NCBI RefSeq assembly: GCF_035610345.1
Contig: NZ_CP141214.1
Span: forward strand, 1 to 64,000
Length of the DNA stretch: 64,000 nucleotides
DNA from: Sinorhizobium meliloti
GTDB taxonomy: Bacteria; Pseudomonadota; Alphaproteobacteria; Rhizobiales; Rhizobiaceae
Direction of reading: 5' to 3'
Shown here: positions 9,571 through 28,877 of the stretch, in pieces
Layout: the number at the start of each line of letters is the position of its first letter
How positions within the stretch are numbered: position 1 is the stretch's first letter
Program-made: the position numbers and the translations under genes
Notes under the pieces: generated by a model
What the model saw: the letters and a program-made list of their open reading frames with translations, nothing else
Database searches by the model: none
Told to the model about the DNA's origin: nothing

Positions 9571-9597
9571 GCTTTCTCGGCGCCGCCTGGTCCCGCG

Positions 9598-12009: not shown

Positions 12010-12678
12010 CTAGAGGACGACCACTTTCGCCCCGATCTTCACCCTTTCGTAGAGGTCGATGACGTCCTCGTTGGTCATGCGGAAGCAGCCTGACGATGAG
12101 GAGCGCCCGACACTTTCCGGCTCGTTCGAACCATGAATGCGGTAGAGAGTGTTGCCCAGGTAGAGGGCCCGCGCGCCGAGCGGATTGTCCGGCCCGCCGA
12201 CCATATGTGTCGGCAGGTCCGGCCTTCGGGCGCGCATGTCCGCCGGCGGGCGCCAATCCGGCCAGGGGCGTTTGGCGGTCACCCTCTCGGATCCGCGCCA
12301 GCCATAGCCTTCTCGACCGACGCCCACGCTGTAGCGAGTGGCTGTTCCACCAGGCTCGACGTAGTAAAGAGCATATTCGCTTGTGTCGATGATCACCGTG
12401 CCGGGAGCCTCCCCGGTCCTGTAAGCCACCCGATGCCTCGGCACGAGGGCGCCTGTCTCTTCGTAGCGACCATTGTGGCGGTATTGCCGCGGCGGGTAGG
12501 CGGACGGCGACATCAGGAACTGGATGTAACCGTCTTCGATCCAGACCCGATTGTTTTTCTTGTCCAACAACGGTGGCGAAGGCTGCTCCGCATATGCTTT
12601 GCTGGCTGTCGCGACTGAAAGTGCCGTCAAGAACAGCGGCACAACGACGCGCCTCGCCAGTGTTCTCAAATCGGACAT
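12010..12678 (-). CDS. L,D-transpeptidase (YkuD domain), exported
   Basis: L,D-transpeptidases cross-link peptidoglycan or attach proteins to it in the periplasm. A signal peptide (about residues 1-30, cleaved after A-Y-A) precedes a YkuD domain with the catalytic motif H182-G-S-N-E ... S-S-G-C198-F-R-M. At 222 aa it is a single-domain form. GGAG eight bases upstream supports the start. It follows sctU by 28 bp on the same strand, so it is probably the last gene of the leftward T3SS operon. A role in remodelling the cell wall for the secretion apparatus is inferred from position. Confidence 0.85.
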   Translation of the reverse strand: MSDLRTLARRVVVPLFLTALSVATASKAYAEQPSPPLLDKKNNRVWIEDGYIQFLMSPSAYPPRQYRHNGRYEETGALVPRHRVAYRTGEAPGTVIIDTSEYALYYVEPGGTATRYSVGVGREGYGWRGSERVTAKRPWPDWRPPADMRARRPDLPTHMVGGPDNPLGARALYLGNTLYRIHGSNEPESVGRSSSSGCFRMTNEDVIDLYERVKIGAKVVVL

Positions 12679-12706: not shown

Positions 12707-13744
12707 TCAAATCAAACCGTTAGCGACCAGCGCATTCGCCACCTGCTGAAAGAGCCGGTCTGGAACCGGCGCCCCGATAGGGGTCCTTTCGAGATCTGCG
12801 GCGAGTGGCACATCGATCGTCAACGGAATTCCTTTCTTCCTCGCCTGATCCCGCATCGCTGCCCCGGCCGCGCCGGTGGCACGGCAGGCGATGAGCGGAA
12901 CGGGCGTTTCGCCGCGGACATATCGGATCCCGACCGCTCCCGACCCGCCGTCCCCGATCAGCAGTGCGGCATTGGAAAGTCCGGTTTTGGTCGCGCCGAC
13001 TAGGCCCGCGAGTTTGCGGCGCTCCTGCCTTATGAGCGGATCGCCTTCGGTATCCTTGTGCTCACGTTTGCTCTCGGACTTCGTCATGCGCATCTCGCGC
13101 ATAAATAGCCAGCGTTGCAGAAAGACGTCGAAGGTGCCCATGACGATGAAGGCGGCAATCGCGATGAAGGCGGTGGTCTTGAGCATGGAGAGGGACAGCG
13201 CGTGCAGGCACATGAAACCGCATGTCGGCGCTTGGAACAATGCCTTCAGGCCCGCATGGAAGACAACGGAAAATGCAACGGAAAGCGCCAGGATTTTGAA
13301 CAGCGCCTTGCCGAACTCGATGATGCTTTTCAGCGACGTCAGGCGCTTCAAACCGCTCGCCGGACTGACGCGGCTGAAATCCGGTTCGACCGGTTTCACC
13401 GAGAACACGAATCCCCTGGTGATCGCCACATTGGTGGCCAGGATCGCGACGATCGTTATTCCGAGGATCGGCAGCACTGTTGTCCAAAGGGCGTAGACGG
13501 CGACGGTGCTCAGTCGGTACCAGACATCTGCGAACGGACGCTCGTAGATATGTGACGCCTCATCCAGCAGGACGTCGATCTTCACCTGCAGACGCGGAGC
13601 GACATAGAAGAGGTAGAGGGTGCAAAAGAGAATGACGATGCCAGAGACCATGTCGGGGCTATGGAGCACTTGGCCTTTCTTGCGGGCATCCCGGATCTTC
13701 TTTTCGGATGCCGGAAGGGCTTTTTCTTCGCTTGTCTCGCTCAT
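12707..13744 (-). CDS. sctU: T3SS export-gate switch protein SctU, without the NPTH motif
   Basis: SctU (RhcU/YscU/FlhB family) is an inner-membrane export-apparatus protein with four membrane segments and a cytoplasmic domain that normally cleaves itself at N-P-T-H to switch substrates. This 345-aa protein starts typically (S-E-K-K-I-R-D-A-R-K-K-G-Q-V) and keeps the flanking block G-I-R-Y-V-R-G-E-T-P-V-P-L. At the cleavage site it has D-G-G-S (codons 12952-12941), so autocleavage by the known mechanism is not possible. Its ATG overlaps the stop of the TPR gene (ATGA). The C-terminal domain is otherwise of full length. Confidence 0.9.
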   Translation of the reverse strand: MSETSEEKALPASEKKIRDARKKGQVLHSPDMVSGIVILFCTLYLFYVAPRLQVKIDVLLDEASHIYERPFADVWYRLSTVAVYALWTTVLPILGITIVAILATNVAITRGFVFSVKPVEPDFSRVSPASGLKRLTSLKSIIEFGKALFKILALSVAFSVVFHAGLKALFQAPTCGFMCLHALSLSMLKTTAFIAIAAFIVMGTFDVFLQRWLFMREMRMTKSESKREHKDTEGDPLIRQERRKLAGLVGATKTGLSNAALLIGDGGSGAVGIRYVRGETPVPLIACRATGAAGAAMRDQARKKGIPLTIDVPLAADLERTPIGAPVPDRLFQQVANALVANGLI

Positions 13745-14592
13745 GTTACGCCGTCCTTGGCCGATGTCAGGAGGCCTACCTCCTGAGCGCGTCTCGCAGG
13801 ATCCGAAATGGACGGCAATTTCGCAGCTTTCGCCAGGATCTGGTTCTTCTGCCTAGCCGACATGTCGGGCACGTCGAAGGCGCGCGCCTTCTCGGTCTCT
13901 CCGGCCATCGCCAGCACAATCAGATAATTGACGAAGTGCCTTCTTTGGGCGAGCGGTGATCCGATTACGTTGCCCATATGCATAACGGCCTGTGGCAGGT
14001 CGTTCGAGAGTGCTTGGGCGAGTGCGAGATTGGTTGTGGTGTCCAGATTGGCGGGTTGCAGCGACAGGGCTTTGGAAAAGGCCTCTTCTGCTGCCGCGCC
14101 ATTACCGCTGAAGACGAGGGCGGTACCCAGCCGATTATAGGCGACGACTGAGTTCAGCGCCTGCGCAGCCGGAATTAGAGTGCGCGCGGCCAACTCGGTT
14201 TCGCCTTTGCGCAACTGCGCGGTACCCAATCCCAGCAGCGCCTCCGCGTCCTGGGGATTGACCTGCAGGGCCGCGCGGAAAGCCTCTTCCGCACCCTCGA
14301 CATCGCCAGCCTTCAGGCGTGCATTGCCGACGCGGACGCGCAGCGACACGTCGCCCGGCGCGTTTTCAGCAGCGCGCTCGTAAAGCGCCAACGCCGTCGC
14401 ACTTTCTCCTTTGGCCTCGATGCTCTCCGCAATGCTGAGCAGCTTCTTCTGCCCGCTCGACGGTTCGTCCTTCTCGTTCTCGGCAGACGTCGTCGTGCAT
14501 GAGGAAAGTGCGAGCAGTGCAAGGAGAGCGGCAACGCTCCTCTTATTGCCCGCCCCATGCCGACCGAATTGCAGGAAGGAATTTAGGGTCAT
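13741..14592 (-). CDS. TPR lipoprotein, TadD-like
   Basis: A lipoprotein signal peptide ending in L-A-L-S-S-C (Cys about residue 32) is followed by four or five tetratricopeptide repeats (about residues 50-220), for example A-L-A-L-Y-E-R-A-A-E-N-A-P and A-F-S-K-A-L-S-L-Q-P. This is the architecture of TadD, the pilotin-like partner of Tad-pilus secretins, and of other secretin pilotins. Because the secretin three genes upstream is of the Tad type, a role in secretin targeting or assembly is likely. Start and stop overlap both neighbours (ATGA on each side), so it is in the core of the operon. Confidence 0.75.
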   Translation of the reverse strand: MTLNSFLQFGRHGAGNKRSVAALLALLALSSCTTTSAENEKDEPSSGQKKLLSIAESIEAKGESATALALYERAAENAPGDVSLRVRVGNARLKAGDVEGAEEAFRAALQVNPQDAEALLGLGTAQLRKGETELAARTLIPAAQALNSVVAYNRLGTALVFSGNGAAAEEAFSKALSLQPANLDTTTNLALAQALSNDLPQAVMHMGNVIGSPLAQRRHFVNYLIVLAMAGETEKARAFDVPDMSARQKNQILAKAAKLPSISDPARRAQEVGLLTSAKDGVT

Positions 14593-14999
14593 TCTTCACC
14601 TGTAATGTTCGTCTCCGCGCGGCGCCTGCGGCCCTCGTCGCTGTGTCCGTCAAGATAGTTCTTCGCGGCGCGCGCTACCGGAGCAGCCATCGCCGGACCC
14701 ATCTCGCGGCCCTGGATGAGATCCCCCTGGTTTTGTGCCATGAACTGCAGATTGAGATTGTTGGCGCAGCCGGGTGGCAGATAGAGCGGCTGATCGGCGG
14801 TGTCGGGGGTGATACAGGCGTCGGGTACCAGAACCTGGCGCTCCGCCACGTCATAGCCCTTGTGCACGATGCCCGCCTTTGCCGGTGCCCCCCGCATCGA
14901 AATAGAGCTGTAATTGGGAGAGTAGGGCTGTGGGTGTGAACCACTGCAGGCGCCTGCGCTGAGCGATAGGACCACCACTAGCACCAGCCGGACCTTCAC
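14589..14999 (-). CDS. Small lipoprotein, CpaD-like
   Basis: From a GTG at 14999 (good AGGGGATG site) the protein starts with a lipoprotein signal ending L-S-A-G-A-C. An ATG at 15032 would add 11 residues that spoil the signal. The C-terminal half contains P-P-G-C-A-N-N-L-N-L-Q-F-M-A-Q-N-Q-G-D-L-I-Q-G-R, similar to the end of CpaD proteins of Tad pili (G-C-A-x-x-x-N-L-x-x-M-x-x-x-P-x-D-L). CpaD is an outer-membrane lipoprotein that works with the CpaC secretin. Homology is judged by eye and is short. It lies between the secretin and the TadD-like gene. Confidence 0.65.
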   Translation of the reverse strand: MKVRLVLVVVLSLSAGACSGSHPQPYSPNYSSISMRGAPAKAGIVHKGYDVAERQVLVPDACITPDTADQPLYLPPGCANNLNLQFMAQNQGDLIQGREMGPAMAAPVARAAKNYLDGHSDEGRRRRAETNITGEE

Positions 15000-15021
15000 C
15001 GCACCATCCCCTGCCGGGCGA

Positions 15022-16362
15022 TCATTCCACATAGAAGCCGTATCCTTTGTTGACGACGGGCTTGGTCTTGCTGCGCGGGGACGTGATCGCCCCGGAGGGG
15101 CTGTCCAGCGGCGTTTTCATCTTTCGTTCGGAGGTGGGCGAGACCAGATACGGCGTAATCAGGATGACAAGTTCAGTCTCATTGCGCTGGAACCGCTTGG
15201 ACTTGAACAGCTCTCCGAGGATCGGGACGTCGCCGACGACAGGGGTTTTGTTCAGCGTCTGCGATTCCTGTCGCTGGAATAGACCCGCAATTGCAAAGGT
15301 CTGGCCGGTTCCGACCTCGACTGTCGTGTCGGCCCGGCGTATCCTGAGAGACGGCACCACAAGTCCGCCGATTGAAACTACACTGTCCTGAGAAACGCTG
15401 CTGACCTCCGGGCGCACCTGCAGCGCGATTCGGTTGTTCGGGAGGAGCGTCGGCGTGAACTGGAGCGAGACGCCGAACTGCTTGTATTCTATACCGATCT
15501 GATCGTCGCCGACCGGCACCGGTACCGGAATTTCACCGCCGGCGAGGAAGCTGGCGGTCTGACCAGTGACGGCGGTGATGTTCGGCTCCGCCAGAATCGT
15601 CAATATGCCGTTCGCCTGCAGCGCGTCCAGCAGCACGTTAACGTTCACATGATCGCCCCTGGCGCCGATCGCGATGCCGGTGTCGTCCTCGTTGCTGGCG
15701 CCGCCGGTCCGGATGATGCCGAAGGAGAAGGACCCGCTGTTGACGAAGGCACTCCAATCGATGCCGAAGCGCGTTAGTTCGTTTCGGGCGACTTCCGCAA
15801 AGCGTACGCGAATATTGACCTGATTGGTTCCGGCAATCGTAGTGTTGTTGAGCGCCTGCTTGTCCGGAGTGGAGTAGCTCTGGAGGACATTTTCCATGTC
15901 CATCGCTTCGCCGACGTTGCGGGTCTGCCCGGTGCCGACATACTGACCGCCGAACAGACTTATGTCGACCTTAGTTGTCGGCTGCAGCGCCAGCGCCGAT
16001 TGCTCCGCAGCGCGCGGATTGCCGCTGACGCGCACCTGCACGGTGCCGCGTGTGCTCTGGTCGGCGCTTAGGGCAATCAGATTAGTGTCACCGATTTTCG
16101 TTGCATAGATATAGACTACGCCCGGCGAGACGACGCGCACGTCGGCGATTGCCGTATCCGCGAGAAAAACCGACTCAACCGGTTCGTCGAAACGCAGGAT
16201 CTGACCTGCCCCAACAGTGAGCTCAAGCACCTGACCGTTAATGGCATCGACCTTTACCTGCGCATTGGCCGTCCCTACGAGAAGGGAGGAAAGCATCAAC
16301 ATCAGGATGAACGAGATTATTTTCCCTGCGGCAATCGCGCGAAAACATCGCAAGCTCAGCAT
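15022..16362 (-). CDS. T3SS outer-membrane secretin of the Tad/CpaC type (RhcC2 position)
   Basis: The 446-aa protein has a signal peptide (cleaved after A-N-A-Q), a pilus-secretin N-terminal BON-like domain (L-R-F-D-E-P-V-E-S-V-F-L-A-D ... D-T-N-L-I-A-L), and a C-terminal secretin domain with V-P-I-L-G-E-L-F and the final beta-lip E-L-V-I-L-I-T-P-Y-L-V. The N-terminal domain is that of Tad-pilus CpaC/RcpA secretins, not the N0-N1 domains of SctC. The N0-N1 part is encoded separately at 20882. The start at 16362 has AGGAAAT upstream; the longer frame is not needed. It is embedded between sctV and the TadD/CpaD-like genes. Confidence 0.88.
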   Translation of the reverse strand: MLSLRCFRAIAAGKIISFILMLMLSSLLVGTANAQVKVDAINGQVLELTVGAGQILRFDEPVESVFLADTAIADVRVVSPGVVYIYATKIGDTNLIALSADQSTRGTVQVRVSGNPRAAEQSALALQPTTKVDISLFGGQYVGTGQTRNVGEAMDMENVLQSYSTPDKQALNNTTIAGTNQVNIRVRFAEVARNELTRFGIDWSAFVNSGSFSFGIIRTGGASNEDDTGIAIGARGDHVNVNVLLDALQANGILTILAEPNITAVTGQTASFLAGGEIPVPVPVGDDQIGIEYKQFGVSLQFTPTLLPNNRIALQVRPEVSSVSQDSVVSIGGLVVPSLRIRRADTTVEVGTGQTFAIAGLFQRQESQTLNKTPVVGDVPILGELFKSKRFQRNETELVILITPYLVSPTSERKMKTPLDSPSGAITSPRSKTKPVVNKGYGFYVE

Positions 16363-16441
16363 TCCATTTCCTATTGTTCCCCTCACCGGCGACCCCGCGC
16401 CGGCAAAACTCAACTAAGTTTCGTGAGCGTCCCCACCGATG

Positions 16442-18589
16442 TCATTGGCGCGTGCCTGGGAGCTCCGCCACCCCGGTCACCGGGAGCGCGATATAGCCAA
16501 GGCACTGGACGCTGAATTCCGCGGAGATCTCCTGGTAACAAAGAACCGCCACGTTCAAATCGTGGCGCGCCAGAAGATTTCGGACGTGGCGCCGGATATC
16601 GATCGATGTAAGGATCGCGGTGCGGAGCTGAGAATCAGATTTCTCCTGTCGCATTTTCAGTTCTTCCAGGATCGGGGCCGCCAACCGCTCCGGAATGCCA
16701 CCTATCGGCCCGTTATTCTTCTCGACCGCAGTTCTTATCTCGTCCTCGAGAGGCCGCGTGAAAAGATAGGCGCAAATGATCCTGTTGCTGTCGGCGAGAC
16801 GGAAGCAGATTTGTCGGCTGAGGCTCACCCGCACGCTGTCAGTCAGCGCCTGTACGCCCTGTATCTGCGCGCCGCGCTCGGCAACGGCCTGGAGAATGAT
16901 ACGCATGTTGGTGATCGGAACGTCTTCCTCGAGTAATCTGCGCAGCACGTCAGCAAGCTTCTGCGCTGAAACAGCCTCCAGAACCTCTCGGATCAGATCG
17001 CCATAGGCCTCGTTTAATCGGCTGAGCATGGCACGCACCTCCTGTGCGTCGATGAACTCCGGCGCATAGCGGCGCAGCACGCGTTCCAGAAGCGTGATGA
17101 TGACGTCGTCCGCCTCGCAGTAGCCGACCCCCGCAGCGTCCAAAGCCGCCGAACGGGTTTTCTCGACCCAAACGAGCCTCAGTCCCAGGAGGTCCGGTTG
17201 GGTAACATAGGGCACCGACATGATGTCGAGGTCGACCGTTTCGTCCCAAACCATGACATGATAGAGCGGCAGCCCGGTCTCGAGGACTGGAACGCCTTCG
17301 AAAGCGACACGAAGCCCGGTCCGTTCCTGCCGAGGATCCATAAGGAAGCCGATCGCCGGAACACGGATGCCGAGGTCCTCGAGGATAGCTGCAGCGGACG
17401 CTTCGGTTCGTTCGGCGAACAAGTCGGGCGGAATCGCCTGGGCAAGTTCCTCCCCTAGCGACACGGTGATCCTGTGTGCGACTCCACCGAGCTCGCCGGA
17501 ATTAGTGGGTAAGGTCCCTGCAATATGGTCGACGACGGTCCCGCCGGACGACATCGGCCGGGGCGGCTCACGCGGCATCGATGCTGACCCTAATGCATCC
17601 TCGTCAGCGCTTCGGCGATGTGCGGCATAGGCGAGGAGGCCGGCCGCGGCGGCGAGAAACCAAAAGACGAGCAACGGAAAACCCGGAACAAGGCCAAATC
17701 CGAAGAGGATGGCCGCCGCGAGCGCCAGTGCGCGATCGCTCGCGCCGAGTTGGCCGAGGATTTCCGAGCTCAAGTCCTGTGGGCTGCGGCCGGACGGTAC
17801 GCGCGTGACCACCGCGCCGGCGGCCACCGCCATCATCAAGGCCGGGATCTGTGCTATCAAGCCATCGCCGACGGTCAGCAGTGAATAGGTATGTGCCGCT
17901 TCGCCGACCGTCAGGCCTCGTTGTAAAGATCCGATGGTGAGGCCTCCGATGAGATTGATCGCGATGATGATGAGGCCTGCGACCGCATCTCCCTTGACGA
18001 ATTTCATGGCGCCGTCCATGGCGCCGTAGAATTGGCTCTCCCGCTCGAGCTCATCGCGCTTCTGGCGGGCTTCCTGCTGGTCGATTTCGCCGCTGCGCGC
18101 TTCATTGTCGATGCTCATCTGCTTGCCCGGCATGGCGTCGAGGGCAAAGCGCGCTCCGACCTCGGCAACGCGCTCGGCGCCCTTGGTGATCACCACGAAC
18201 TGGGCGACGGTGATGATCAGGAAGACGATGAGCCCGACGAGCACGTCGCCGCCGACAACGAAGTCTCCAAAGGCCGAGACGATCTGCCCTGCATCGGCCT
18301 CGGTCAGGATGAGACGCGTCGTGGTGATCGAAAGAGAGAGGCGAAAGAGCGTCCCGAGCAGAATGATCGATGGCAGAGACGAGAACTGCACGGGGCGAGA
18401 CACATAGAACGCGCCGATGAGGATCAGCAGGCTGTAGAAGAAGTTGAATCCGATCAGCGCATCTACCAAATAGGTCGGCATCGGGATGATCATCATCGTG
18501 ATCGCGAGCATCACCAGTGCCGCAACAACGATGTCCGACCGTCGAGCGGCGGCTCTGGCGAACTGGTTGACGGTGGCGATCGCGCTCAT
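16442..18589 (-). CDS. sctV: T3SS major export-gate protein SctV
   Basis: SctV (RhcV/YscV/FlhA family) forms the nonameric export gate in the inner membrane. The 715-aa product has seven or eight membrane segments in the first ~320 residues, the conserved block L-L-G-T-L-F-R-L-S-L-S-I-T-T-T-R-L-I-L near residue 80, and a cytoplasmic domain from about 340. The start at 18589 overlaps the stop of the SctY-like gene (ATGA) and has a GGGTGG site. Stop is 80 bp before the secretin start. SctX-, SctY- and SctV-type genes are consecutive, as in Yersinia. Confidence 0.95.
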   Translation of the reverse strand: MSAIATVNQFARAAARRSDIVVAALVMLAITMMIIPMPTYLVDALIGFNFFYSLLILIGAFYVSRPVQFSSLPSIILLGTLFRLSLSITTTRLILTEADAGQIVSAFGDFVVGGDVLVGLIVFLIITVAQFVVITKGAERVAEVGARFALDAMPGKQMSIDNEARSGEIDQQEARQKRDELERESQFYGAMDGAMKFVKGDAVAGLIIIAINLIGGLTIGSLQRGLTVGEAAHTYSLLTVGDGLIAQIPALMMAVAAGAVVTRVPSGRSPQDLSSEILGQLGASDRALALAAAILFGFGLVPGFPLLVFWFLAAAAGLLAYAAHRRSADEDALGSASMPREPPRPMSSGGTVVDHIAGTLPTNSGELGGVAHRITVSLGEELAQAIPPDLFAERTEASAAAILEDLGIRVPAIGFLMDPRQERTGLRVAFEGVPVLETGLPLYHVMVWDETVDLDIMSVPYVTQPDLLGLRLVWVEKTRSAALDAAGVGYCEADDVIITLLERVLRRYAPEFIDAQEVRAMLSRLNEAYGDLIREVLEAVSAQKLADVLRRLLEEDVPITNMRIILQAVAERGAQIQGVQALTDSVRVSLSRQICFRLADSNRIICAYLFTRPLEDEIRTAVEKNNGPIGGIPERLAAPILEELKMRQEKSDSQLRTAILTSIDIRRHVRNLLARHDLNVAVLCYQEISAEFSVQCLGYIALPVTGVAELPGTRQ

Positions 18590-18921
18590 GTCGCCACCCT
18601 GGCCTGAAGGTAGTCTTTGAACGCAGCGCGCGCCTCGTCTTCCCGCCCACGCAGCCAATGTGCCTTGCTTCTCAAGCGTGAAAGATCCGGATCGGCCTTG
18701 CCGGAAATGTCATCGATGCGATCGATAGCGGCGATTGCGCGCGTCGCCGCATCCGTAGCGATGAAAGCTTCGGCCAGGGCATGCAGTATCGAGGCATCTT
18801 CCGGAGCCATTCTTGCGGCAAGCAACAGGAAGACAAGGCCGCGCTCATGGTGTCCGCCGCGACAATACAGCGAACCCAGCGCATGGAGAAATTCGACACT
18901 GTCGGCGCGTTGCTGCGTCAA
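18586..18921 (-). CDS. sctY: SctY-like TPR protein
   Basis: A 111-aa, all-helical, TPR-like cytoplasmic protein without signal or membrane segment (F-L-H-A-L-G-S-L-Y ... A-A-R-M-A-P-E-D-A ... A-L-A-E-A-F). It is placed directly upstream of sctV and overlaps it by four bases. YscY is a 114-aa TPR-type chaperone that binds YscX and YscV, and the size, fold and gene order match. Translation seems to start at a TTG that overlaps the stop of the previous gene (TTGA). The assignment rests on position and fold rather than on clear sequence motifs. Confidence 0.65.
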   Translation of the reverse strand: MTQQRADSVEFLHALGSLYCRGGHHERGLVFLLLAARMAPEDASILHALAEAFIATDAATRAIAAIDRIDDISGKADPDLSRLRSKAHWLRGREDEARAAFKDYLQARVAT

Positions 18922-19298
18922 CTGTTTTGCGCCTGCATGAGCCGGCGCTGAAGATCGCGCCTGCTTTCGATTTCTTCGTTCAGCATCGAGGCCGTGAGCT
19001 TCGCGATATCCTCATCGAGGTTCAGACCCGGCAAGACTTCCTCGACGACATAGTTCAGTATCTCCTGAGAGCGCAATAGATCGAAAAGGCTGGCACTCGA
19101 GAGCCTTGCCCGTCCCCCTGCCGCGCTCGCACGGGAGCCACTTGCCTGCGCCGTCTTCTGCCTCGCCTGGCGGACTGATTGCAGGAGCCTGGCGTCGAAC
19201 GCCTGCGACTGCGCCTCGACAGCCGCATCAGGCCGCACTGAAACCACGCTCGGCTGAGCGCGGTTGCGATTGTCGTGTCGGCGAACCTCCAAGCTCAT
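18918..19298 (-). CDS. sctX: SctX-like early-substrate candidate
   Basis: The 126-aa protein has a polar, Ala/Arg/Gln-rich and probably disordered N-terminal half with no cleavable signal, and a helical C-terminal half (L-F-D-L-L-R-S-Q-E-I-L ... L-T-A-S-M-L-N-E-E-I-E-S-R-R-D-L-Q-R-R). YscX (122 aa) has the same design, is itself secreted, and needs YscY. The gene is immediately upstream of the SctY-like gene and overlaps it. Position, length and layout support SctX; the sequence match is weak by eye. Confidence 0.55.
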   Translation of the reverse strand: MSLEVRRHDNRNRAQPSVVSVRPDAAVEAQSQAFDARLLQSVRQARQKTAQASGSRASAAGGRARLSSASLFDLLRSQEILNYVVEEVLPGLNLDEDIAKLTASMLNEEIESRRDLQRRLMQAQNS

Positions 19299-19322: not shown

Positions 19323-20234
19323 TCAGAAGCGAACCGTGAATTCTTCCCCCTGCCGCCCTGCCGTCAGGCTGCCGTCGCGGATATCCTTGATGTACCAGCC
19401 ATCCTCGAGTGCGGCGCCCTTGTAGAGGCGTGTACCATCGGCGCTGATCGCATAGGGTGTTTCGCCGAACCAAACGGCTTGCAGATTGAATTTCGGGGAG
19501 GTTTTCGGAACGGCCTCGCCGACCTCGCTCGTGAGAACGTAGCGGTCGCCATAGGTCCGATCGAACCAGCTCTGGACGCCGTTCCACGACTCGCGGCTTT
19601 CGTCGTCGACCGCGCCGGAAACGGAGAGCCGGGCTCCGTCCGTCTGCACCCGAAGACCACGCAGGCCAGCCTCCAGGAGCTTTACCGAAAGGGCTGACGA
19701 CACATCCTCCGCGGAGAGCGGTTGGGGAGGTACGCCGGCGGTCGTCACAGTTTCTGGGCTGAGGTTCGTGATGGAAGGGGATCTGTCGACGTCAGCCACT
19801 CCGGCCTGGACGGCGGCGATGGTGAGGAGCGAGAAGGCCGCCGCCGTACCACCCGCAATCCACTTTAAGCGCATGGGCCGCTGCGTCCTACTGCCCGATT
19901 GAGTCCGCCCCGGTTCCGAAAGGCTCAGGCGCGCGCTGCCAAGCGAAACCATCACAGGCGTTTTGACCTGGAGACCATGGCCGACGGGAACAGTCGTTTC
20001 ATCGACGACGACATCGGCTCCGATTGCCTCGATCATTAGCTCGGACCCGGCAAACTGCAGTCGCATATGGCGATCACTGACGTCGTGGTCGCTCAACATG
20101 AGATCACAATCCGCAGCTGAGCCGATCAAATAAGAGCCCTGTGCCAAGGGCAAGGAAACGCCGCTGTGGACACCTTTGAGAATATCCAGCGTCAAATCCG
20201 TAGCAGCATTCTTCAAGACCAAACTGGATGCCAT
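19323..20234 (-). CDS. sctD: T3SS inner-membrane ring protein SctD
   Basis: SctD forms the outer ring of the inner-membrane basal body. The 303-aa product has an N-terminal cytoplasmic FHA domain (G-S-Y-L-I-G-S-A-A-D-C-D-L and S-D-R-H-M-R-L), one membrane segment at about 125-146, and a periplasmic BON-like domain (A-V-D-D-E-S-R-E-S-W). It is shorter than YscD (about 419 aa) and seems to have a reduced periplasmic part. GAGGTGA precedes the ATG. It is separated from the small gene upstream by a terminator-like hairpin at 20320-20340. Confidence 0.88.
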   Translation of the reverse strand: MASSLVLKNAATDLTLDILKGVHSGVSLPLAQGSYLIGSAADCDLMLSDHDVSDRHMRLQFAGSELMIEAIGADVVVDETTVPVGHGLQVKTPVMVSLGSARLSLSEPGRTQSGSRTQRPMRLKWIAGGTAAAFSLLTIAAVQAGVADVDRSPSITNLSPETVTTAGVPPQPLSAEDVSSALSVKLLEAGLRGLRVQTDGARLSVSGAVDDESRESWNGVQSWFDRTYGDRYVLTSEVGEAVPKTSPKFNLQAVWFGETPYAISADGTRLYKGAALEDGWYIKDIRDGSLTAGRQGEEFTVRF

Positions 20235-20881: not shown

Positions 20882-21535
20882 ATGAAGAACGTCATGCTTG
20901 CGAGGAGCTTCTGTATGTTTGCTGTCTCTATATTAGCGATCTCGTCCCCGACGTTTGCGGGCGCTCCGCCGTGGTACAACAGTCGCTACAGCTATGTCCT
21001 GATTAACCAGGACGTTCGCGACGCACTCAAGGAGTTCGGTCGCAATCTTTCCATTCCAGTCGTTGTGTCCGAGAGGATCCGCGGTCAGGTTCGAGGTGAG
21101 ATTCGTGCGGAAACGGCCATGGACTTCCTCGACAGGCTGACGCAGGCGAACGGATTGACCTGGTATTTCGATGGGTCGATATTGCACATCAATGCCAGTG
21201 ACGAGTTCTCCACGCAGATCATCGATACTGGTAGGGCAGATGGCCGTTCGGTCATACACGAGATCGAGCGGCTGGACCTCATGGACGACCGGTTCTCAAT
21301 TCGGGCGACAGCCAATGCGCCAGCGCTTCGCGTCTCAGGACCACCTGCATTCATTGCGATGGTGAAGCAAGTCGTTTCATCGGTACAGCCGCCACCGAGA
21401 GCCCAGGTGGACGACCCACGCGTTCGTATATTTCGCGGCGGTCAGCACAAGGAAGTAGAGGCCGACCTCGTCGAGAACGGTCGTCAAGCGACCAATTCCC
21501 AGACCAGCGACACTCAGCAGGAGGGCAAAAGATGA
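20882..21535 (+). CDS. rhcC1: Secretin N-terminal domain protein (RhcC1-like)
   Basis: The 217-aa protein has a signal peptide (cleaved after T-F-A-G-A or nearby) and the N0/N1 domains of T3SS secretins. These include Y-V-L-I-N-Q-D-V-R-D-A-L-K-E-F-G-R-N-L-S-I-P-V-V-V-S (split here only for description), G-L-T-W-Y-F-D-G-S-I-L-H-I and the second domain with L-R-V-S-G-P-P-A-F-I. No channel-forming secretin domain follows. In rhizobia the secretin is split into RhcC1 (this part) and RhcC2, and here the partner is the CpaC-type protein on the opposite operon. It is the first gene after the promoter. Confidence 0.82.
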   Translation: MKNVMLARSFCMFAVSILAISSPTFAGAPPWYNSRYSYVLINQDVRDALKEFGRNLSIPVVVSERIRGQVRGEIRAETAMDFLDRLTQANGLTWYFDGSILHINASDEFSTQIIDTGRADGRSVIHEIERLDLMDDRFSIRATANAPALRVSGPPAFIAMVKQVVSSVQPPPRAQVDDPRVRIFRGGQHKEVEADLVENGRQATNSQTSDTQQEGKR

Positions 21536-21717
21536 CCGGTTCGATATCGGCGACAGCTCAGGCACCCGTTCAGACACAGAATGCGAACCCCTCACAGGCG
21601 CAATTCGAAGAGGCGCTGCAGCAAGCGGTCGCGGCAGGCGGTAGTCAACTGATCGGACAGGAGATGATGAAGATCGCTCAGGAAATCCTCAACGAAGCCT
21701 TGTCTGACGAGGAATAG
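21532..21717 (+). CDS. Needle subunit candidate (SctF)
   Basis: The 61-aa protein has no signal peptide. An unstructured start is followed by helix (N-P-S-Q-A-Q-F-E-E-A-L-Q-Q-A-V), a G-G turn, and a second helix (M-M-K-I-A-Q-E-I-L-N-E-A-L). This helix-turn-helix hairpin, beginning with N-P, and the position just before the inner-rod gene are as expected for a T3SS needle subunit (compare prgI-prgJ-prgK). It is somewhat short. It overlaps rhcC1 by four bases. The 53-aa protein at 20353 is the competing candidate. Confidence 0.55.
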   Translation: MTGSISATAQAPVQTQNANPSQAQFEEALQQAVAAGGSQLIGQEMMKIAQEILNEALSDEE

Positions 21718-21743: not shown

Positions 21744-22175
21744 ATGACGGTTGTCCCACCAGTTGAGAATACGACGCTCGCAACAGCCCCTGCCGTTCAG
21801 GACTCCAACTTCGTCACTTCCCAGGACCTGTTCGAGCATGCGGCGATGAACGTCATGACCTTGCCCCATGGGGCGAGCCCGGTGGATCTCGGCCGAACGA
21901 TCGCCGACAACCTGAAGGGTTTCGTGGAGCGTGCCGGGAAATTCGCCAACGGTACGGAGCTTTTTGCAAATCCGGGTCAACAGGCGGCGTCACAGTCGTT
22001 CGCGCCCAACTTGACAGCCGCCGAGGCAAATCTCGCGCGCACATCGGACAGCGAGGCGGGGCGGCTGGTGGAAGCACTGGGCAAAATATTCGATCACGCA
22101 ATCGAAACGCAGATGGTCGTTCGCGGCCCGACGCAATTCACCAGCGCGACGATGACACTCGTCAAAGGTCAATGA
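21744..22175 (+). CDS. sctI: Inner-rod protein candidate SctI (NopB/NolB position)
   Basis: The 143-aa protein lacks a signal peptide and ends in a helix closing with T-M-T-L-V-K-G-Q, the type of C-terminus found in SctI proteins. The N-terminal part is polar and flexible. It lies immediately upstream of sctJ, overlapping it by four bases, as yscI and rhizobial nolB/nopB do. SctI forms the periplasmic inner rod that anchors the needle to the export gate. Assignment is by position plus the C-terminal pattern. Confidence 0.65.
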   Translation: MTVVPPVENTTLATAPAVQDSNFVTSQDLFEHAAMNVMTLPHGASPVDLGRTIADNLKGFVERAGKFANGTELFANPGQQAASQSFAPNLTAAEANLARTSDSEAGRLVEALGKIFDHAIETQMVVRGPTQFTSATMTLVKGQ

Positions 22176-22972
22176 ATATTTTCTGGCGGCCCTCAACGAT
22201 CACGCGCGCGCTGACTCTCGCGCTCATGGTTCTGACGCTGCAGGCCTGCAGCGTCGATCTTTACACCAATCTGGACGAGCGGGAGGCGAACGAGATGGTC
22301 GCCACGCTTCTATCGAAAGGCATAGCCGCCAACCGCGTCCTCCAGAAGGACGGTAAGCTGACGGTCACTGTAGACGAGGATCAATTCTCTCAGGCTGTCG
22401 CCTTGCTCAACGCGGCGGGCTTGCCGAAGGAGAGATTCGCAACGCTCGGCACCGTCTTCAAGCAGGAGGGGCTTGTAGCCTCGCCCGTGCAGGAGCGGGC
22501 GCAGATGATCTATGCGCTGAGCGAGGAGCTCTCCCGGACCGTCTCGGAGATCGATGGCGTGCTAGCGGCGCGCGTTCACGTTGTACTACCGGACAATGAT
22601 CCATTGCAGCGCAACGCGATTCCCGCCTCAGCCTCGGTTTTCATCCGCCACGAAGCCGATCTTGACGTGAACCCGCTTATCCCGCGGATCAAGACTCTCG
22701 TTGCCAACAGCATATCGGGACTGAGCTACGAGAAAGTCTCGGTGGTGCCGGTAGCGAGCCAGCGGACGAGCGAGCCCGCCACGGGCGCGGAACTCACCTC
22801 CTTCCTCGGCATGTGGATGCTGCCCGCGAGCGTCGCCAAGGCCAAACTCATCTTTGGCTGCCTGGCAGGTGCTCTGCTCGCTGCGATGGTAAGCCTCGGC
22901 TATCTGGCGTGGCAAAAGCAAAGCAGGCGACGGAAAGTCTATCCTCTGCAGCCATATGGTCCGGCAAAGTGA
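22172..22972 (+). CDS. sctJ: T3SS inner-membrane ring lipoprotein SctJ
   Basis: SctJ (RhcJ/YscJ) builds the inner ring of the basal body. The 266-aa product has a lipoprotein signal ending L-Q-A-C, then the conserved start D-L-Y-T-N-L-D-E-R-E-A-N-E-M, the linker Q-E-G-L-V-A-S-P-V-Q-E-R-A, and the second ring-building motif with V-A-A-R-V-H-V-V-L-P (here L-A-A-R-V-H). A C-terminal membrane segment lies at about 225-248 and a short basic tail follows. Length is typical. Confidence 0.95.
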   Translation: MNIFWRPSTITRALTLALMVLTLQACSVDLYTNLDEREANEMVATLLSKGIAANRVLQKDGKLTVTVDEDQFSQAVALLNAAGLPKERFATLGTVFKQEGLVASPVQERAQMIYALSEELSRTVSEIDGVLAARVHVVLPDNDPLQRNAIPASASVFIRHEADLDVNPLIPRIKTLVANSISGLSYEKVSVVPVASQRTSEPATGAELTSFLGMWMLPASVAKAKLIFGCLAGALLAAMVSLGYLAWQKQSRRRKVYPLQPYGPAK

Positions 22973-23649
22973 CGGAGCGCTCAGCGGTAAACGGCGCAAC
23001 GGGCGCCGAAGCGAAGAACATATGGGAGGCCTTCCGTGGCGCCCCGGCTCGCCTGATCCATCCGCGCCATATCGTCACCGCCTTTGGTGAGGCGATCACT
23101 TTCGAGGCAGCGGTCAGGCTGCAGCAGTCTGATCGGGTGCAAAGGACGCTTTGCCGCCTGCTAATGGAGAAATTCGACCTTCCGGATGTCGGCTCCTGTC
23201 CCTCCCCAGAAGAAGACGACCTCAAGCTCCTGGCACTGGCGCCGTCAGCTGTGGGACAGCACAGTTATCTCGCCGGAGCGGTTTTCTGGGGCCATGTACT
23301 TGCCGGCGAAATTCGCAGTCGCGAAGTTGCCTTGATGAAGGAGCGCATTGGGGAGCGTGCATTCCGTATCGGCGTAGACAATCGCGACCTCGCCGCCGGA
23401 TTGGAGCCTCCTGGGAACCTTGATGCCTTGGTGCAGGCGATTGAACGAGACGGCCGCAAATGCTGGGCCGGCTGGAAAACGTCCCTCCCTGATGCCTTGG
23501 CGGCGTGGCTGCGCTTGACGGACGAGGTGGACGACCACGGCATTCACCACGCCGAAGCGGCGGATCCGGCCAGGGGCGCGGCGATTATCCGGCGTCTCCA
23601 GCGCCAAGAAGACACCGATACGCACTTCGCCGGCAGGGAGGGTCAATGA
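22969..23649 (+). CDS. sctK: T3SS sorting-platform protein SctK (NolU position)
   Basis: A GTG at 22969 overlaps the sctJ stop (GTGA) and gives a 226-aa protein; the longer open frame upstream lies inside sctJ. SctK links the cytoplasmic sorting platform (SctQ-SctL-SctN) to SctD. The sequence has the helix-rich, Trp-containing look of the family (N-I-W-E-A-F, H-P-R-H, a W-A-G-W pair near 165), which is poorly conserved. The order J-K-L-N is invariant in rhizobial clusters and is the main evidence. Confidence 0.75.
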   Translation: MTERSAVNGATGAEAKNIWEAFRGAPARLIHPRHIVTAFGEAITFEAAVRLQQSDRVQRTLCRLLMEKFDLPDVGSCPSPEEDDLKLLALAPSAVGQHSYLAGAVFWGHVLAGEIRSREVALMKERIGERAFRIGVDNRDLAAGLEPPGNLDALVQAIERDGRKCWAGWKTSLPDALAAWLRLTDEVDDHGIHHAEAADPARGAAIIRRLQRQEDTDTHFAGREGQ

Positions 23650-24251
23650 AAGAACTCCCCAGCAGGCCCACGGCAAAGATCCTCCGCAAGGCGGAAGGCG
23701 ATCATTGGCTCGAAGGGTTCGCATTTCTACAGGCTGCAAAATCCGAAGCGCATCAGCAGCTCGCGCAGGTGCGCCAGATCGTGGAAGCGAGCAGAAAGCA
23801 GGGCTACGAAGAGGGCAGATCTGAGGGAGAGCGCCAGGCCGCCGCCCTCCTGATTAAAACGACTGCCGACGTCAACACCTATGTCGCTGGGCTTGACCGG
23901 CAGATCGCCGAACTCAGTCTCGCGATCGTCGAGAAACTGCTGGGCCATTTCGATCAGGCGGAGCTGGTCGCCAGCCTTGCACAGCAGGCGCTGCAATCCT
24001 TCCAGCATGAGCGCGAGGTGACGATCACCGTCTCCCCCGTTCTTGTCGAGCGGGTCACTGAAATCATCGAGCAGCACAACAAGAATGCCGCCCTCCGGAT
24101 CTCGGTTCTCGCGGACCCCCGAATCGATGGCAGCAAGTGCGTTCTCGCCAATGCCGTGGCTGTCGTCGATGCAGGACTCGACGCGCAACTTTCCGTCATT
24201 CGCGATGCCTTGCTCGGTGCTCAAGCAGATACTTCAGGCTCTGTCGCATGA
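23646..24251 (+). CDS. sctL: T3SS stator protein SctL
   Basis: SctL (NolV/YscL/FliH family) is the peripheral stalk that regulates the ATPase. The 201-aa product has the expected central coiled coil rich in Glu, Gln and Arg (about residues 35-95, including the [11 protein letters not shown] motif) and a C-terminal ATPase-binding domain. Start overlaps sctK (ATGA). Length is close to YscL. Confidence 0.88.
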
Positions 24252-25594
24252 TCGAGCAGGCGCTGTCGGATCCTGGCGAGCTCATTCGGCGCCTGCGCCG
24301 GCGGGCGCTGACGTCCGATACGCGACCGGTTCACGGACGCGTCCGTAGGATCACGGGGATCATCGTCCATGCGACCGCCCCGATGGTCCGCATCGGTGAG
24401 CTTTGCTATCTCCGAGATCCGGTCTCCGGCACAACCGTGCCAGCAGAGGTCGTCGGCTTTGAAGACGAGGAGGCAGTGCTGACGCCGATCGGTGATCTTG
24501 AGGGCATGTCTACGCGAGCGGAAGTCATCGCCACCGGCAAGACGTTGCAGATTCCCGTTGGCGAGGGCCTCCTCGGCCGGGTACTCAACCCTTTGGGAGA
24601 AGTCCTCGACTTGGCCGAGGATCGTACCGTACCGCTTGTTACAGGGACCTACTACCCAACACATCGACCGCCGCCCAACGCGCTGCAGCGCGATCTCATC
24701 ACCCATCCTCTGCAACTCGGCATCCGGGCCATCGACGGATTGCTCACCGTAGCTCGCGGCCAACGCGTCGGTATCTTCGGAGAGCCGGGCGTTGGAAAGT
24801 CCTCGCTCCTGTCTGCCATTGTTCGCGGCACGAAAGCGGACGTCGTGGTAATCGGTCTTGTGGGCGAACGCGGCCGCGAAGTGCGAGAGTTCATCGAGCG
24901 GCAGCTCGGCGAGGAGGGCCGCAAGCGTTCGGTCGTGGTGGTTGCGACTTCCGATCGCCCGGCGATCGAGCGTGTGAAAGCAGCCTACTGCGCGACCGCG
25001 ATAGCCGAGTATTTTCGCGACCAAGGTCAAGACGTCCTGCTTCTGATGGACAGTGTCACCCGATTTGCCCGGGCGCAGCGGGAGATCGGACTTGCGGCAG
25101 GCGAGCCGCCAACCCGCCGAGGCTATCCGCCCTCTCTTTTTGCCGCCTTACCGCGACTGTTGGAGAGGGCAGGGCCGGGGCGAGGCGGTACCATCACGGC
25201 TCTCTACACGGTCCTGACCGAGGGTGACGGGACGCTGGACCCTGTCGCCGAGGAAACGAAAGCCATTCTCGATGGCCATATCATGCTGAGTTCCAGTTTG
25301 GCCGAGCGCAACTTCTTTCCCGCGATCGACGTGCTGAAGAGCCGTAGCCGTTTGATGGAAAGCGTCGCAGGCACGGCGCACCGGGAACATGCCGCTCACA
25401 TTCGTGCGCTGCTTGCCCGCTACGAGGAGATCGAGCTGTTGCTGCGAGTGGGGGAGTACGAGCGCGGTCTCGATGCGCTGTCGGATGAAGCGATCGTAAA
25501 GCGCGAGGCAATTGAAGCCTTTCTCAGACAGGACGACAACGAGTTCTCGTCGTTGGACACGACCGAGGAGCTGCTGAAGAGGATCGCATCGTGA
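24248..25594 (+). CDS. sctN: T3SS ATPase SctN
   Basis: SctN is the hexameric ATPase that unfolds substrates and removes chaperones at the cytoplasmic gate. The 448-aa protein has a beta-barrel N-terminus, Walker A G-E-P-G-V-G-K-S (about residue 178), catalytic-Glu region V-G-E-R-G-R-E-V, Walker B V-L-L-L-M-D-S (about 260) and the [12 protein letters not shown] block. The start at 24248 overlaps sctL (ATGA), and a longer frame lies inside sctL. All catalytic residues I could check are present. Confidence 0.97.
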
Positions 25595-26079
25595 CCCGGA
25601 AAGTCGATTTGCGCCGACTCGTCGAATTACGCGCATTAAGGATGCGGCGTGCGGAAGCCGCGGCGGAGCTCCAGCATGGGCGCCACCGGCAGGCTACCCG
25701 TACCGTCGAGGCAGCGAAATACGAGAGCTTTACGCATCAGGCGGAGCGCAGACGGCAGGAGGAGGCTCTGTATTCCCAACTCGCCGACGGCCCGCTCGAT
25801 CAGCGCGATCTCGAGAATTACCGCGGTGCGCTGAGCGCCTTGGATCACCGCGCCCGACAGTTGGAAGGGGAAATTCACGCGGCCCGAGAGAGTGAATTGC
25901 GCGAGGCAAGACGGAAGCAAGAACTTGCCGCCGAGTATCGGCGCAAACAGAAGCTGCATGGCCGCATTTCGTTGATAGCGGAGGAAAAGCGCCGCCTGGA
26001 CGCCAAGCGAGCAGACGTCTTTAGCGAGGTCGATGACGAAGATGCAGTTCGCCCAAACAGCCGCAAGCGCTCCAGGTGA
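25591..26079 (+). CDS. sctO: T3SS stalk protein SctO
   Basis: SctO (YscO/FliJ family) inserts as a coiled coil into the ATPase ring and reaches the SctV gate. The 162-aa product is almost entirely charged coiled coil (Arg/Glu/Gln/Ala-rich from about residue 5 to 140), as in the family. It begins with a GTG that overlaps the sctN stop (GTGA). The position between sctN and sctQ is standard for rhizobial clusters. Confidence 0.88.
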
Positions 26080-26083
26080 CCGG

Positions 26084-27133
26084 ATGAGGATGACTGCAGA
26101 AAGCCACGCCCGGGGCGCGGAGGTTCGCTCCCTTGCGGAGGATCCTTCCTGGGTGCCGGAGATTGCCGCAGCGCATGTCGAGGCGTTCAACATGTTGACA
26201 AGGATCCGTGTAGCCTTTCGGCTCTCGGTATCGACCATGAACGTTTCCGTCCAGCCAGCGGAGGACAGGCGACCTTTGACGGAGCCGGTAGAGGTCGCCT
26301 TTTTCATCGGTGGGTCCGCCGGCCGCCTTATGATCCCCGCGGTTGCTCTCGACGAGCTCGCAGCAGCGCTCGGGCTTCGTGCGAAAATCGCGACCCTGAC
26401 GCCTGCCCAGCGTAATATTCTCCTTGAAGAAACCCTCTCCCATCACCTGGAAACGTTGGAGAACCTTGTCGGTGAACCGGTGAGGCTCGGTTCGCTTGAA
26501 TTGCCGACGGACAATCCGATTAAGCTTTCATGGATGATCGAGTCCGGCGGCTTGCCTCATTACGCCGAGCTGCAGCTTAGCACCGGGGCGGCGCTCAAGA
26601 TCGGTAGGGCGTTTGATCGCCCCACAAACGCTCTAAACAGGTTTACAGAGGAACTGGTTCAACCAATCCGGCTCTGCGCCGGGACGCAGCAGCTAAGCGC
26701 CGGCGAATTCAAAAGTCTGCAGGTCGGCGACGTCGTCATGTGTGAGCAGCCTCACACGGAACCCTTTGCCCTCGTTGCAAATCACATGATCGCCTCGCTG
26801 GCCCGCAGCGATGCAGGTTACATACTGATGTCTGGCTGGCGAAATCTAAAAACAAGCTGGGAACATTCCTTCATGGCAAAACAGGACGCGTCGTTTGAAG
26901 AGCCCGAACCGCTCACGGACCTGCCGGTACAACTGGTATTCGAGATCGGACGGGCCGAGTTTCCCCTCAAGGAAATCGTCAAGATGGGGGAGGGGACGGT
27001 GCTTCATGCAAGTCCGAGCCTTTCCAGCCCAGTCAATATCATTGCGAACGGCCGGTTGGTCGGGAAGGGCGAACTAATCAGGGTCGGCGAAGGTCTCGGT
27101 GTGCGCATCGTGCGGCTCTCGAACGATGGGTGA
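26084..27133 (+). CDS. sctQ: T3SS C-ring protein SctQ
   Basis: SctQ is the main component of the cytoplasmic sorting platform. The 349-aa protein ends with a SPOA domain (residues about 275-345: L-P-V-Q-L-V-F-E-I-G-R-A-E-F-P-L then V-G-K-G-E-L-I-R-V-G-E-G-L-G-V-R-I) and has a second, less conserved SPOA-like region before it. I prefer the ATG at 26084 because AGGTG stands just upstream; a start at 26033 would overlap sctO by 47 bases. An internal start that makes a short C-terminal product, as in YscQ, cannot be excluded. Confidence 0.88.
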   Translation: MRMTAESHARGAEVRSLAEDPSWVPEIAAAHVEAFNMLTRIRVAFRLSVSTMNVSVQPAEDRRPLTEPVEVAFFIGGSAGRLMIPAVALDELAAALGLRAKIATLTPAQRNILLEETLSHHLETLENLVGEPVRLGSLELPTDNPIKLSWMIESGGLPHYAELQLSTGAALKIGRAFDRPTNALNRFTEELVQPIRLCAGTQQLSAGEFKSLQVGDVVMCEQPHTEPFALVANHMIASLARSDAGYILMSGWRNLKTSWEHSFMAKQDASFEEPEPLTDLPVQLVFEIGRAEFPLKEIVKMGEGTVLHASPSLSSPVNIIANGRLVGKGELIRVGEGLGVRIVRLSNDG

Positions 27134-27776
27134 GACGACCAATCTCATACCGATCATCATCATTGTATCGACGATCGGCCTCATTCCGCTCGCCGTGGTG
27201 ACGATGACGGGATTCCTGAAAATCTCGATCGTCCTCTTCCTGATCCGCAACGCGCTTGGCATCCAGCAGTCGCCTCCCAATCTCGTGCTCTATGGCGTCG
27301 CGTTGATCCTTACGGTGTATGTGACGACGCCGCTGGTCGGCGAGATGTACCGTACGCTCTCCAGCGAGCCGGTCGACGTGCAATCGATGGATAGCATGAT
27401 GCGGGCAGCGGACTCGCTGCGCGCGCCGCTACAGGCGCATCTCAAACGCTATACCGACGAAAACGAGCGCCAGTTTTTCATGCAGGCGACCGAGCGAATC
27501 TGGTCGGAGGAGGCCCGGGCCCAGGTGAAGACCGACAGCCTCTTAATCCTTGTGCCGGCGTTCGTCAGTTCGGAGCTGACACGCGCCTTTGAAATCGGTT
27601 TCCTGCTCTATCTGCCGTTCTTGGTCATCGATCTCATCGTCTCGACCGTGCTGATGGCGATGGGCATGATGATGGTGTCTCCGACACTCATTTCAATTCC
27701 GTTGAAGATATTCCTCTTCGTCGCCGTCAACGGCTGGTCGCGGCTGATGCACGGCTTGATACTGAGCTACGGATAG
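27126..27776 (+). CDS. sctR: T3SS export-apparatus protein SctR
   Basis: SctR (FliP family) forms the core of the export gate with SctS and SctT. The 216-aa protein has four hydrophobic segments and the family blocks M-T-G-F-L-K-I-S-I-V-L-F-L-I-R-N-A-L-G (residues ~30-48) and F-E-I-G-F-L-L-Y-L-P-F-L-V-I-D-L-I-V (near 155). The ATG at 27126 overlaps sctQ by eight bases. No signal peptide is expected for T3SS members. Confidence 0.96.
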   Translation: MGETTNLIPIIIIVSTIGLIPLAVVTMTGFLKISIVLFLIRNALGIQQSPPNLVLYGVALILTVYVTTPLVGEMYRTLSSEPVDVQSMDSMMRAADSLRAPLQAHLKRYTDENERQFFMQATERIWSEEARAQVKTDSLLILVPAFVSSELTRAFEIGFLLYLPFLVIDLIVSTVLMAMGMMMVSPTLISIPLKIFLFVAVNGWSRLMHGLILSYG

Positions 27777-27781: not shown

Positions 27782-28051
27782 ATGGATCAAACCGCCTTCC
27801 TCGCTCAAATGCAGAAAGCGCTCTTGATGGTGCTGCTCGCCTCCGCGCCCGCACTTGCGATCGCCATTGTCATCGGGGTCACAGTGGGCCTGTTGCAGGC
27901 TTTGACGCAGATTCAGGACCAGACGCTGCCCCAGGCCGTCAAACTCGTCGCCGTCATGTTGGCCTTGATCGTACTCGGACCGGCGCTCGCGGTTCAGGTG
28001 GCAAACTTCGCGAGCAACACGCTCGATATCTTTCCCGCCCTGACGCGGTAG
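27782..28051 (+). CDS. sctS: T3SS export-apparatus protein SctS
   Basis: SctS (FliQ family) is an 89-aa protein with two membrane helices. The conserved T-V-G-L-L-Q-A-L-T-Q-I-Q-D-Q-T-L-P-Q block lies between them, followed by K-L-V-A-V-M-L-A-L. It begins five bases after sctR. Confidence 0.95.
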   Translation: MDQTAFLAQMQKALLMVLLASAPALAIAIVIGVTVGLLQALTQIQDQTLPQAVKLVAVMLALIVLGPALAVQVANFASNTLDIFPALTR

Positions 28052-28058: not shown

Positions 28059-28877
28059 GTGGATTCTCTCGTCGCCACATCAACGATGTTCGACGCCATC
28101 TATCCGGTGCTCGCAGGGGCAGCCATTGCTATGGCCCGAGCACTGGGAATGATCGTGATCACGCCAGCATTTGTGCGGCTTGGCCTGACAGGACTTATTC
28201 GCTCGGGGGTAGCCATCGCAATAGCTCTGCCGCTGGTGCCGAGCTTGACGACGACGCTGATCGACATGCCAGGCCTCACGACCATCACGGTAGCCGGCCT
28301 TTTGATGAAGGAGATTATCATCGGGATCGTCCTCGGCGTCGTCCTCGGCATTCCGTTCTGGGCTGCCGAGGTCGCTGGCGATCTCGTCGATTTGCAGCGA
28401 GGCTCGACATCGGCGCAACTCGTGGACCCGCTGCAGGCGACGGAGACCAGCATTGCTGGTACGTTTTTCGTGCTGGCGCTGGTCGCCGTCTTCTTCAAGT
28501 CGGGGGGCTTTTCCCTGCTCGCCGATACCTTCTATAAAAGCTACGAAATTTGGCCTGTGACCAGTTTTCGGCCGACGCTCGGTTCCGAATCCGCAATGGC
28601 TGTTCTCGCCATTGTTGACCGCATCATGCAAATCGGCGTTCTGCTGATCGCACCAATTGTGCTGGCGCTGCTGATCGCCGATCTGATGCTTGCCTACCTG
28701 TCGCGAATGTCGCCGCAACTGCACGTATTCGATTTGTCGCTCGCGGTCAAAAACCTGATCTTCGCGACCCTGATCGTCCTCTACCTGACCTACCTCCTGC
28801 GATATATGGAGAAGGAGCTCGCGATCCTTAAGGTCGCTCCGCAGCTGCTGCGCGGCCTTGCCGGGGCGCCGAATTAG
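28059..28877 (+). CDS. sctT: T3SS export-apparatus protein SctT
   Basis: SctT (FliR family) completes the core export gate. The 272-aa protein has six hydrophobic segments and the conserved W-A-A-E-V-A-G-D-L-V-D-L-Q-R-G block (residues ~107-121). A GTG at 28059, with TAGGTGG upstream, is the likely start; an ATG at 28086 is an alternative. In classical rhizobial clusters sctU follows directly, but here it is on the divergent operon instead. Confidence 0.95.
   Translation: MDSLVATSTMFDAIYPVLAGAAIAMARALGMIVITPAFVRLGLTGLIRSGVAIAIALPLVPSLTTTLIDMPGLTTITVAGLLMKEIIIGIVLGVVLGIPFWAAEVAGDLVDLQRGSTSAQLVDPLQATETSIAGTFFVLALVAVFFKSGGFSLLADTFYKSYEIWPVTSFRPTLGSESAMAVLAIVDRIMQIGVLLIAPIVLALLIADLMLAYLSRMSPQLHVFDLSLAVKNLIFATLIVLYLTYLLRYMEKELAILKVAPQLLRGLAGAPN

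Follow-up and report, generated by a model that had tools for sequence, protein, structure and literature searches.

The Asn-Pro-Thr-His (NPTH) autocleavage motif of SctU, the export gate and switch protein of type III secretion systems (T3SS), was described as 'strictly conserved' (PMC2615192) and as 'highly conserved' (PMC10333785), and the cleavage of SctU was described as required for switching (PMC7064499). In systems other than the rhizobial ones, SctP is proposed to engage the cleaved C-terminal domain of SctU and thereby to favour the binding of SctW to SctV (PMC10333785). The rhizobial (Rhc) T3SS of subgroup II (Rhc-II) are marked by the presence of sctO, sctD, and sctC2 and by a split secretin with a Tad-type RhcC2 (PMC3574062, PMC3459982), and S. 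meliloti clusters of such kind were assigned to 'T3SSa' or Rhc-II (PMC4053727, PMC3973906). In our study, a stretch of 64,000 nucleotides of Sinorhizobium meliloti (contig NZ_CP141214.1, positions 1 to 64,000; hereafter the window) was found to contain a T3SS cluster whose SctU is devoid of the NPTH site. The cluster is an Rhc-II system because it contained sctO, sctD, and sctC2 and a split secretin whose second half is of the Tad type. The sctU gene and its two sites of interest were as follows.

12707..13744, minus strand: sctU (RhcU-II), export gate and switch protein without the NPTH autocleavage site (PF01312, TIGR01404)
12941..12952, minus strand: D-G-G-S at the N-P-T-H position (codons 265-268, GAC GGC GGG TCG)
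12905..12931, minus strand: G-I-R-Y-V-R-G-E-T, Rhc-specific conserved stretch just past the old cleavage site (codons 272-280)

The initial annotation had claimed that D-G-G-S stands in place of NPTH while the rest of SctU is kept, and both parts were confirmed. The open reading frame was intact and contained 345 codons, the C-terminal domain was conserved, and the Pfam family PF01312 matched the product over its full length (residues 1-332 of 335) with a score (239.1 bits) above the cut-off of 24.4, which places it in the SctU/FlhB family. The match to NCBIfam TIGR01404 (E 7e-76, 255.8 bits) was below the curated cut-off of 358. The DGGS residues were present within ALLIGDGGSGAVGIRY, followed by VRGETPVPL, and the Asn-Pro that marks the autocleaving class at the loop of the beta-hairpin was absent. 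In the flagellar FlhB from this genome (L001), an internal control, NPTH was retained. SctU of S. meliloti GR4 pRmeGR4c was 95.7% identical to the window SctU and contained an identical DGGS. In the AlphaFold2 model, residues 261-264 and 269-274 formed the beta-hairpin, the loop at the site was short, and the C-terminal domain had a predicted local distance difference test score (pLDDT) of about 82-91, the membrane part being poor (predicted template modelling score, pTM, 0.45). The modelled C-terminal domain was matched by Foldseek to SctU/FlhB C-terminal domains of the PDB (E 4e-7 to that of YscU); the top matches were cleavage-dead mutants, partly since cleaved chains are deposited as two pieces, and were not counted for non-cleavage.

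The loss of Asn-Pro extends across the whole Rhc family and is not confined to this cluster. The initial annotation had taken it for a peculiarity of this system, which was not borne out, since the Rhc-I system of NGR234 pNGR234a, reported to be functional, shares it. In a stretch of 16 residues spanning the site, Asn-Pro was absent from all of 121 proteins (the window SctU and the best 120 of its 1738 matches). NPTH in close relatives was a refuting condition set by the initial annotation, and no relative with the same cluster was found to have it. These Rhc-II-type proteins came from Sinorhizobium, Rhizobium, Ciceribacter, Phyllobacterium, and many Pseudomonas. With RhcU-I of NGR234 as the query, 101 of the 112 matches were devoid of Asn-Pro at the site, and the remaining 11, which were FlhB-like, contained it. 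The former loop was hypervariable, and that of the Rhc-I SctU was one residue shorter. With RhcU-III of R. phaseoli as the query (best 120 of 123 matches), 34 proteins (P0234-P0267; 219-279 amino acids) stopped before the homologous C-terminal half. Asn-Pro was present in 82 of the other 86 and absent in four, of which P0268 and P0269 were full length and fell in the Rhc clade, P0348 was partial, and P0349 was unalignable. Across 81 loci, Asn-Pro was absent in 16 (L003-L018) and present in 65. An independent sample of the order comprised 397 genomes, of which 303 contained some SctU/FlhB match, and 30 loci were read. The window gene and 17 others were found to encode full-length Rhc SctU without Asn-Pro, and 10 loci (L113, L115-L123) encoded a different, non-Rhc SctU group with NPTH; L104, which leaves the frame at the site, and L124, which ends early near the contig end, were not counted as evidence. 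The Rhc-II-like cluster of the Klebsiella pneumoniae plasmid pAP855 (L129) likewise contained a SctU without Asn-Pro. This plasmid is conjugative, and its type III cluster includes an HrpK-domain gene.

The trees were built from the membrane-domain columns only, and therefore the site had no influence on the outcome. In the 76-row tree, 46 rows without Asn-Pro were separated from 30 with it by one change (support 100/99), and the window SctU fell in the Rhc clade with the RhcU of NGR234 with the same support; the tree was rooted by flagellar outgroups, which do not form one clade. The 73-row tree (43 rows without and 30 with Asn-Pro) required one change in 200 of 200 bootstrap trees. The 30 Asn-Pro rows of each of these trees were hand-picked, and a 188-row FastTree of all usable representatives was run to lift that bias; it also gave one change between 95 rows without Asn-Pro and 93 with it. 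Rows left out of the trees and counts were L068 (frame broken after the Asn-Pro site), P0231, P0260, P0348, P0349, and those with too few columns. Chance is excluded because the trait changes once over 188 representatives, and the change is polarised as a loss rather than a gain because Asn-Pro is present in the flagellar and other injectisome proteins. Judged from these sequences, the Asn-Pro cleavage site appears to have been lost in the common ancestor of the Rhc systems.

The SctU that remained was found to be under selection. The ratio of nonsynonymous to synonymous substitution rates (dN/dS) of sctU was 0.09-0.16 across ten Rhc-II pairs, in one of which dS was saturated. Two Rhc-I pairs gave 0.25-0.27, and a single Rhc-III pair, whose dS was high, gave 0.21. 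The mean entropy of the C-terminal domain was alike in 76 Rhc and 93 Asn-Pro representatives (1.72 vs. 1.66 bits), whereas at the site the pattern was inverted, with 2.48 bits in Rhc and 0.75 bits in the Asn-Pro proteins; the presence of Asn and Pro in 93/93 of the latter is by construction, as the motif itself served to define this group. Residues 265, 267, and 269 ranked within the top 25 of the Rhc protein for variability. R274-T280 (RYVRGET) was conserved in Rhc but not in the Asn-Pro proteins, and G255 and G272 were present in 76/76 Rhc representatives. The purifying selection together with the new conserved motif argues for a kept function. The initial annotation had expected the system to switch differently or not at all; the first part stands, whereas a dN/dS of 0.09-0.16 and the new motif speak against the second.

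In Rhc-III, SctU (L087:11992-12789; P0234-P0267) lacked the whole C-terminal half-domain, which is a second, deeper departure from the SctU plan. In two Rhc-III loci, the 1.2 kb downstream was inspected in all frames of that strand, and the missing half was not visible. P0267 lies on a contig of 1041 bases, and its gene may be incomplete. That Rhc-III lost the half-domain only once was considered but not shown, as the 76-row tree needs two changes with the full-length P0268 nested inside. The loss of this half-domain suggests that the Rhc family can do without the relay.

The two partners of SctU in this relay, the ruler SctP and the gatekeeper SctW, gave a similar picture. All 10 genomes with an NPTH SctU gave a match to the gatekeeper family PF07201 (nine over the cut-off, the tenth with E 0.006), in eight of them on the sctU contig within about 33 kb, whereas none of 18 Rhc genomes, the window's own included, was matched. 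The window's genome alone is uninformative, having no control match, and the contrast comes from the 10 NPTH genomes. For the ruler, sctO (25591-26079) and sctQ (26033-27133) overlap and leave no room for a gene at its usual place. A PF02120 search of the window's genome gave one match, on contig C1 at about 23 kb from the flagellar flhB, and PF09483 matched nothing, controls included. No hrpP/yscP-like gene was reported from any Rhc subgroup, and SctW and SctP are blank for Rhc-I in Table 1 of the same paper (PMC3574062). The gene overlap and the published reports agree with the absence of SctP claimed in the initial annotation, the profile searches being uninformative. The ruler, the SctU cleavage site, and the gatekeeper are all missing or undetected in Rhc. 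Whether SctP, unreported in rhizobia, has an unrelated replacement there or such regulation is not needed was posed as an open question (PMC3973906), and the SctU trait bears on it. The site in SctU that SctP targets was lost in the same family, and therefore it is more likely that the whole relay was lost or replaced than that an ordinary ruler is hidden. The initial annotation also tied the missing motif to absent translocators. This tie was unsupported, as the same SctU is found in Rhc-I, which bears NopX, and a candidate is present in the window at 29064-32189.

Probably, then, the window encodes an intact and selected export-gate SctU, which is unable to cut itself at the canonical site since an Rhc ancestor lost Asn-Pro. 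Such a SctU would stay uncleaved, its C-terminal domain being held in one state, and the order of substrates would be set without the relay from SctP through SctU cleavage to SctW. Expression timing, chaperones and SctV, or a partner binding the conserved RYVRGET stretch may serve as substitutes. With somewhat less confidence, we favour the wider reading that the Rhc branch, the symbiotic Rhc-I included, runs without SctU self-cleavage, ruler, and gatekeeper. The relay would have been dismantled once in the ancestor, Rhc-III would then have lost the half-domain, and either effector delivery does not require ordered switching or the RYVRGET surface is read by a new partner.

Several points weigh against these readings. 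The non-cleavage of SctU is inferred from its sequence. A missing NPTH does not imply the absence of any cut, because Spa40 N257A of Shigella, in which switching was blocked, was cut at an alternative site (PMC3542141). The deletion of T3SS-II in NGR234 gave no significant nodulation phenotype, and Rhc-II systems are without demonstrated function in the reports available. Over 28 genomes, PF02120 also failed to match next to any of the 10 sctU genes with NPTH and says nothing on the absence of SctP, whose sequences are described as so divergent that absence is hard to prove.

The best surviving alternative, which we consider improbable, is that RhcU is still cut, elsewhere or by another protease, so that the cleavage switch survives in altered form. 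The Shigella mutant provides a precedent, and the C-terminal domain is under selection in Rhc-I and Rhc-II; however, no alternative Asn-Pro was conserved (10/76 Rhc representatives contained one anywhere after residue 239, at scattered positions), the former loop is hypervariable and shortened in Rhc-I, and Rhc-III has no C-terminal half to release, in the gene or downstream in the two loci. Slightly less probable again is that the Rhc-II system of the window is decaying or non-secreting, and that the loss of the motif is a sign of this decay. The missing phenotype of NGR234 T3SS-II fits such decay, the cluster of S. meliloti GR4 was reported as split by a mobile-element region, and genes of insertion sequence (IS) type flank the window cluster (8835-10110). 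Against this, all core T3SS genes of the window cluster were open frames, the dN/dS was about 0.1-0.16, the T3SS-II genes of NGR234 were reported to be upregulated in bacteroids, and SctU is in the same state in Rhc-I, which is described as functional. A sequencing or assembly error at the site is practically out of the question and was ruled out by the identical DGGS of S. meliloti GR4 and the 0/121 count, with no point in its favour.

The other genes of the window cluster, among them the core set of a complete apparatus, were as follows.

12010..12678, minus strand: L,D-transpeptidase (YkuD), adjoining sctU in 11 of 23 compared Rhc loci
13741..14592, minus strand: TPR lipoprotein, TadD-like (by position and repeats)
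14589..15032, minus strand: CpaD-like lipoprotein (under the Pfam cut-off)
15022..16365, minus strand: sctC2 (RhcC2), Tad/CpaC-type secretin
16442..18592, minus strand: sctV
18586..18921, minus strand: SctY-like chaperone (NF052415, 65.5 bits, below the cut-off of 70)
18918..19298, minus strand: protein of 126 amino acids, SctX candidate (by position only, no family match)
19323..20234, minus strand: sctD (Y4yQ-like, FHA)
20882..21535, plus strand: sctC1 (RhcC1), N-terminal secretin domain
21532..21717, plus strand: protein of 61 amino acids, needle (SctF) candidate (by size and position only)
21744..22175, plus strand: protein of 143 amino acids at the nolB/nopB position (no family match)
22172..22972, plus strand: sctJ
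22951..23649, plus strand: sctK-like (under the Pfam cut-off)
23598..24251, plus strand: sctL
24248..25594, plus strand: sctN ATPase
25591..26079, plus strand: sctO (overlaps sctQ, no gene between)
26033..27133, plus strand: sctQ
27099..27776, plus strand: sctR
27782..28051, plus strand: sctS
28059..28877, plus strand: sctT
29064..32189, plus strand: LysM protein of 1041 amino acids, candidate secreted or translocator protein (T3SS-adjacent, hydrophobic stretch near the C-terminus)

The pairing of the L,D-transpeptidase with sctU was found in the alphaproteobacterial Rhc-II loci and in none of the Pseudomonas, Rhc-I, or Rhc-III stretches compared. Relatives of the LysM protein, 41% identical, were present within the Rhc-II clusters of Ochrobactrum and Brucella endophytica. 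Its likeness to HrpK was not supported by profile comparison (hhalign probability <1%), and the protein remains a candidate. In other Rhc-II loci, an unrelated protein of about 1180 amino acids was found downstream of the transpeptidase. Elsewhere in the window, the stretches 10-676 and 6864-8091 share open frames in opposite orientation, a region with a LysR-type gene being partly copied there in inverted form, and an Evf-domain gene (PF18270, E 1.5e-22) was present at 1977-2852, about 9 kb from the T3SS cluster.

Compared with the known Rhc-II systems (S. meliloti 'T3SSa', T3SS-II of NGR234 pNGR234b, and T3SS-2 of P. syringae), the window cluster contained the same genes, with a split secretin, sctO, and no sctP at its usual place, and nothing distinctive. 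The SctU trait is new here; it is not mentioned in the available text of the Rhc-II papers PMC4053727, PMC3973906, and PMC3574062, and in the open-access full texts, to which the search was confined with subscription literature outside its scope, no report of NPTH loss in Rhc SctU was found. The Rhc-III systems of R. etli and R. phaseoli belong to the same Rhc clade, and their SctU alone lacks the C-terminal half-domain. The autocleaving proteins YscU, EscU, Spa40, SpaS, HrcU, and FlhB share the family and the C-terminal domain fold with the Rhc SctU, whereas the latter is devoid of Asn-Pro and contains a variable loop and its specific G255, G272, and RYVRGET. Canonical cleavage is absent as well in the mutants YscU N263A, EscU N262A, Spa40 N257A, and HrcU N264A, and such mutants were the best structural matches. 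These mutants were made in the laboratory in systems that need cleavage, whereas the state in Rhc occurs naturally, is ancestral, and allows secretion by Rhc-I: appendages of NopA, NopB, and NopX and the secretion of Nops were reported for Rhc-I strains (PMC3973906), and secretion of these three proteins with an effect on nodulation was reported for NGR234 pNGR234a. By the standards of the mutants, the Rhc systems should stay in the early mode, yet Rhc-I is reported to secrete, and therefore cleavage would be either unneeded there or replaced. A natural family that lost NPTH once and still keeps its SctU under selection indicates that type III export need not be organised as in the autocleaving systems.
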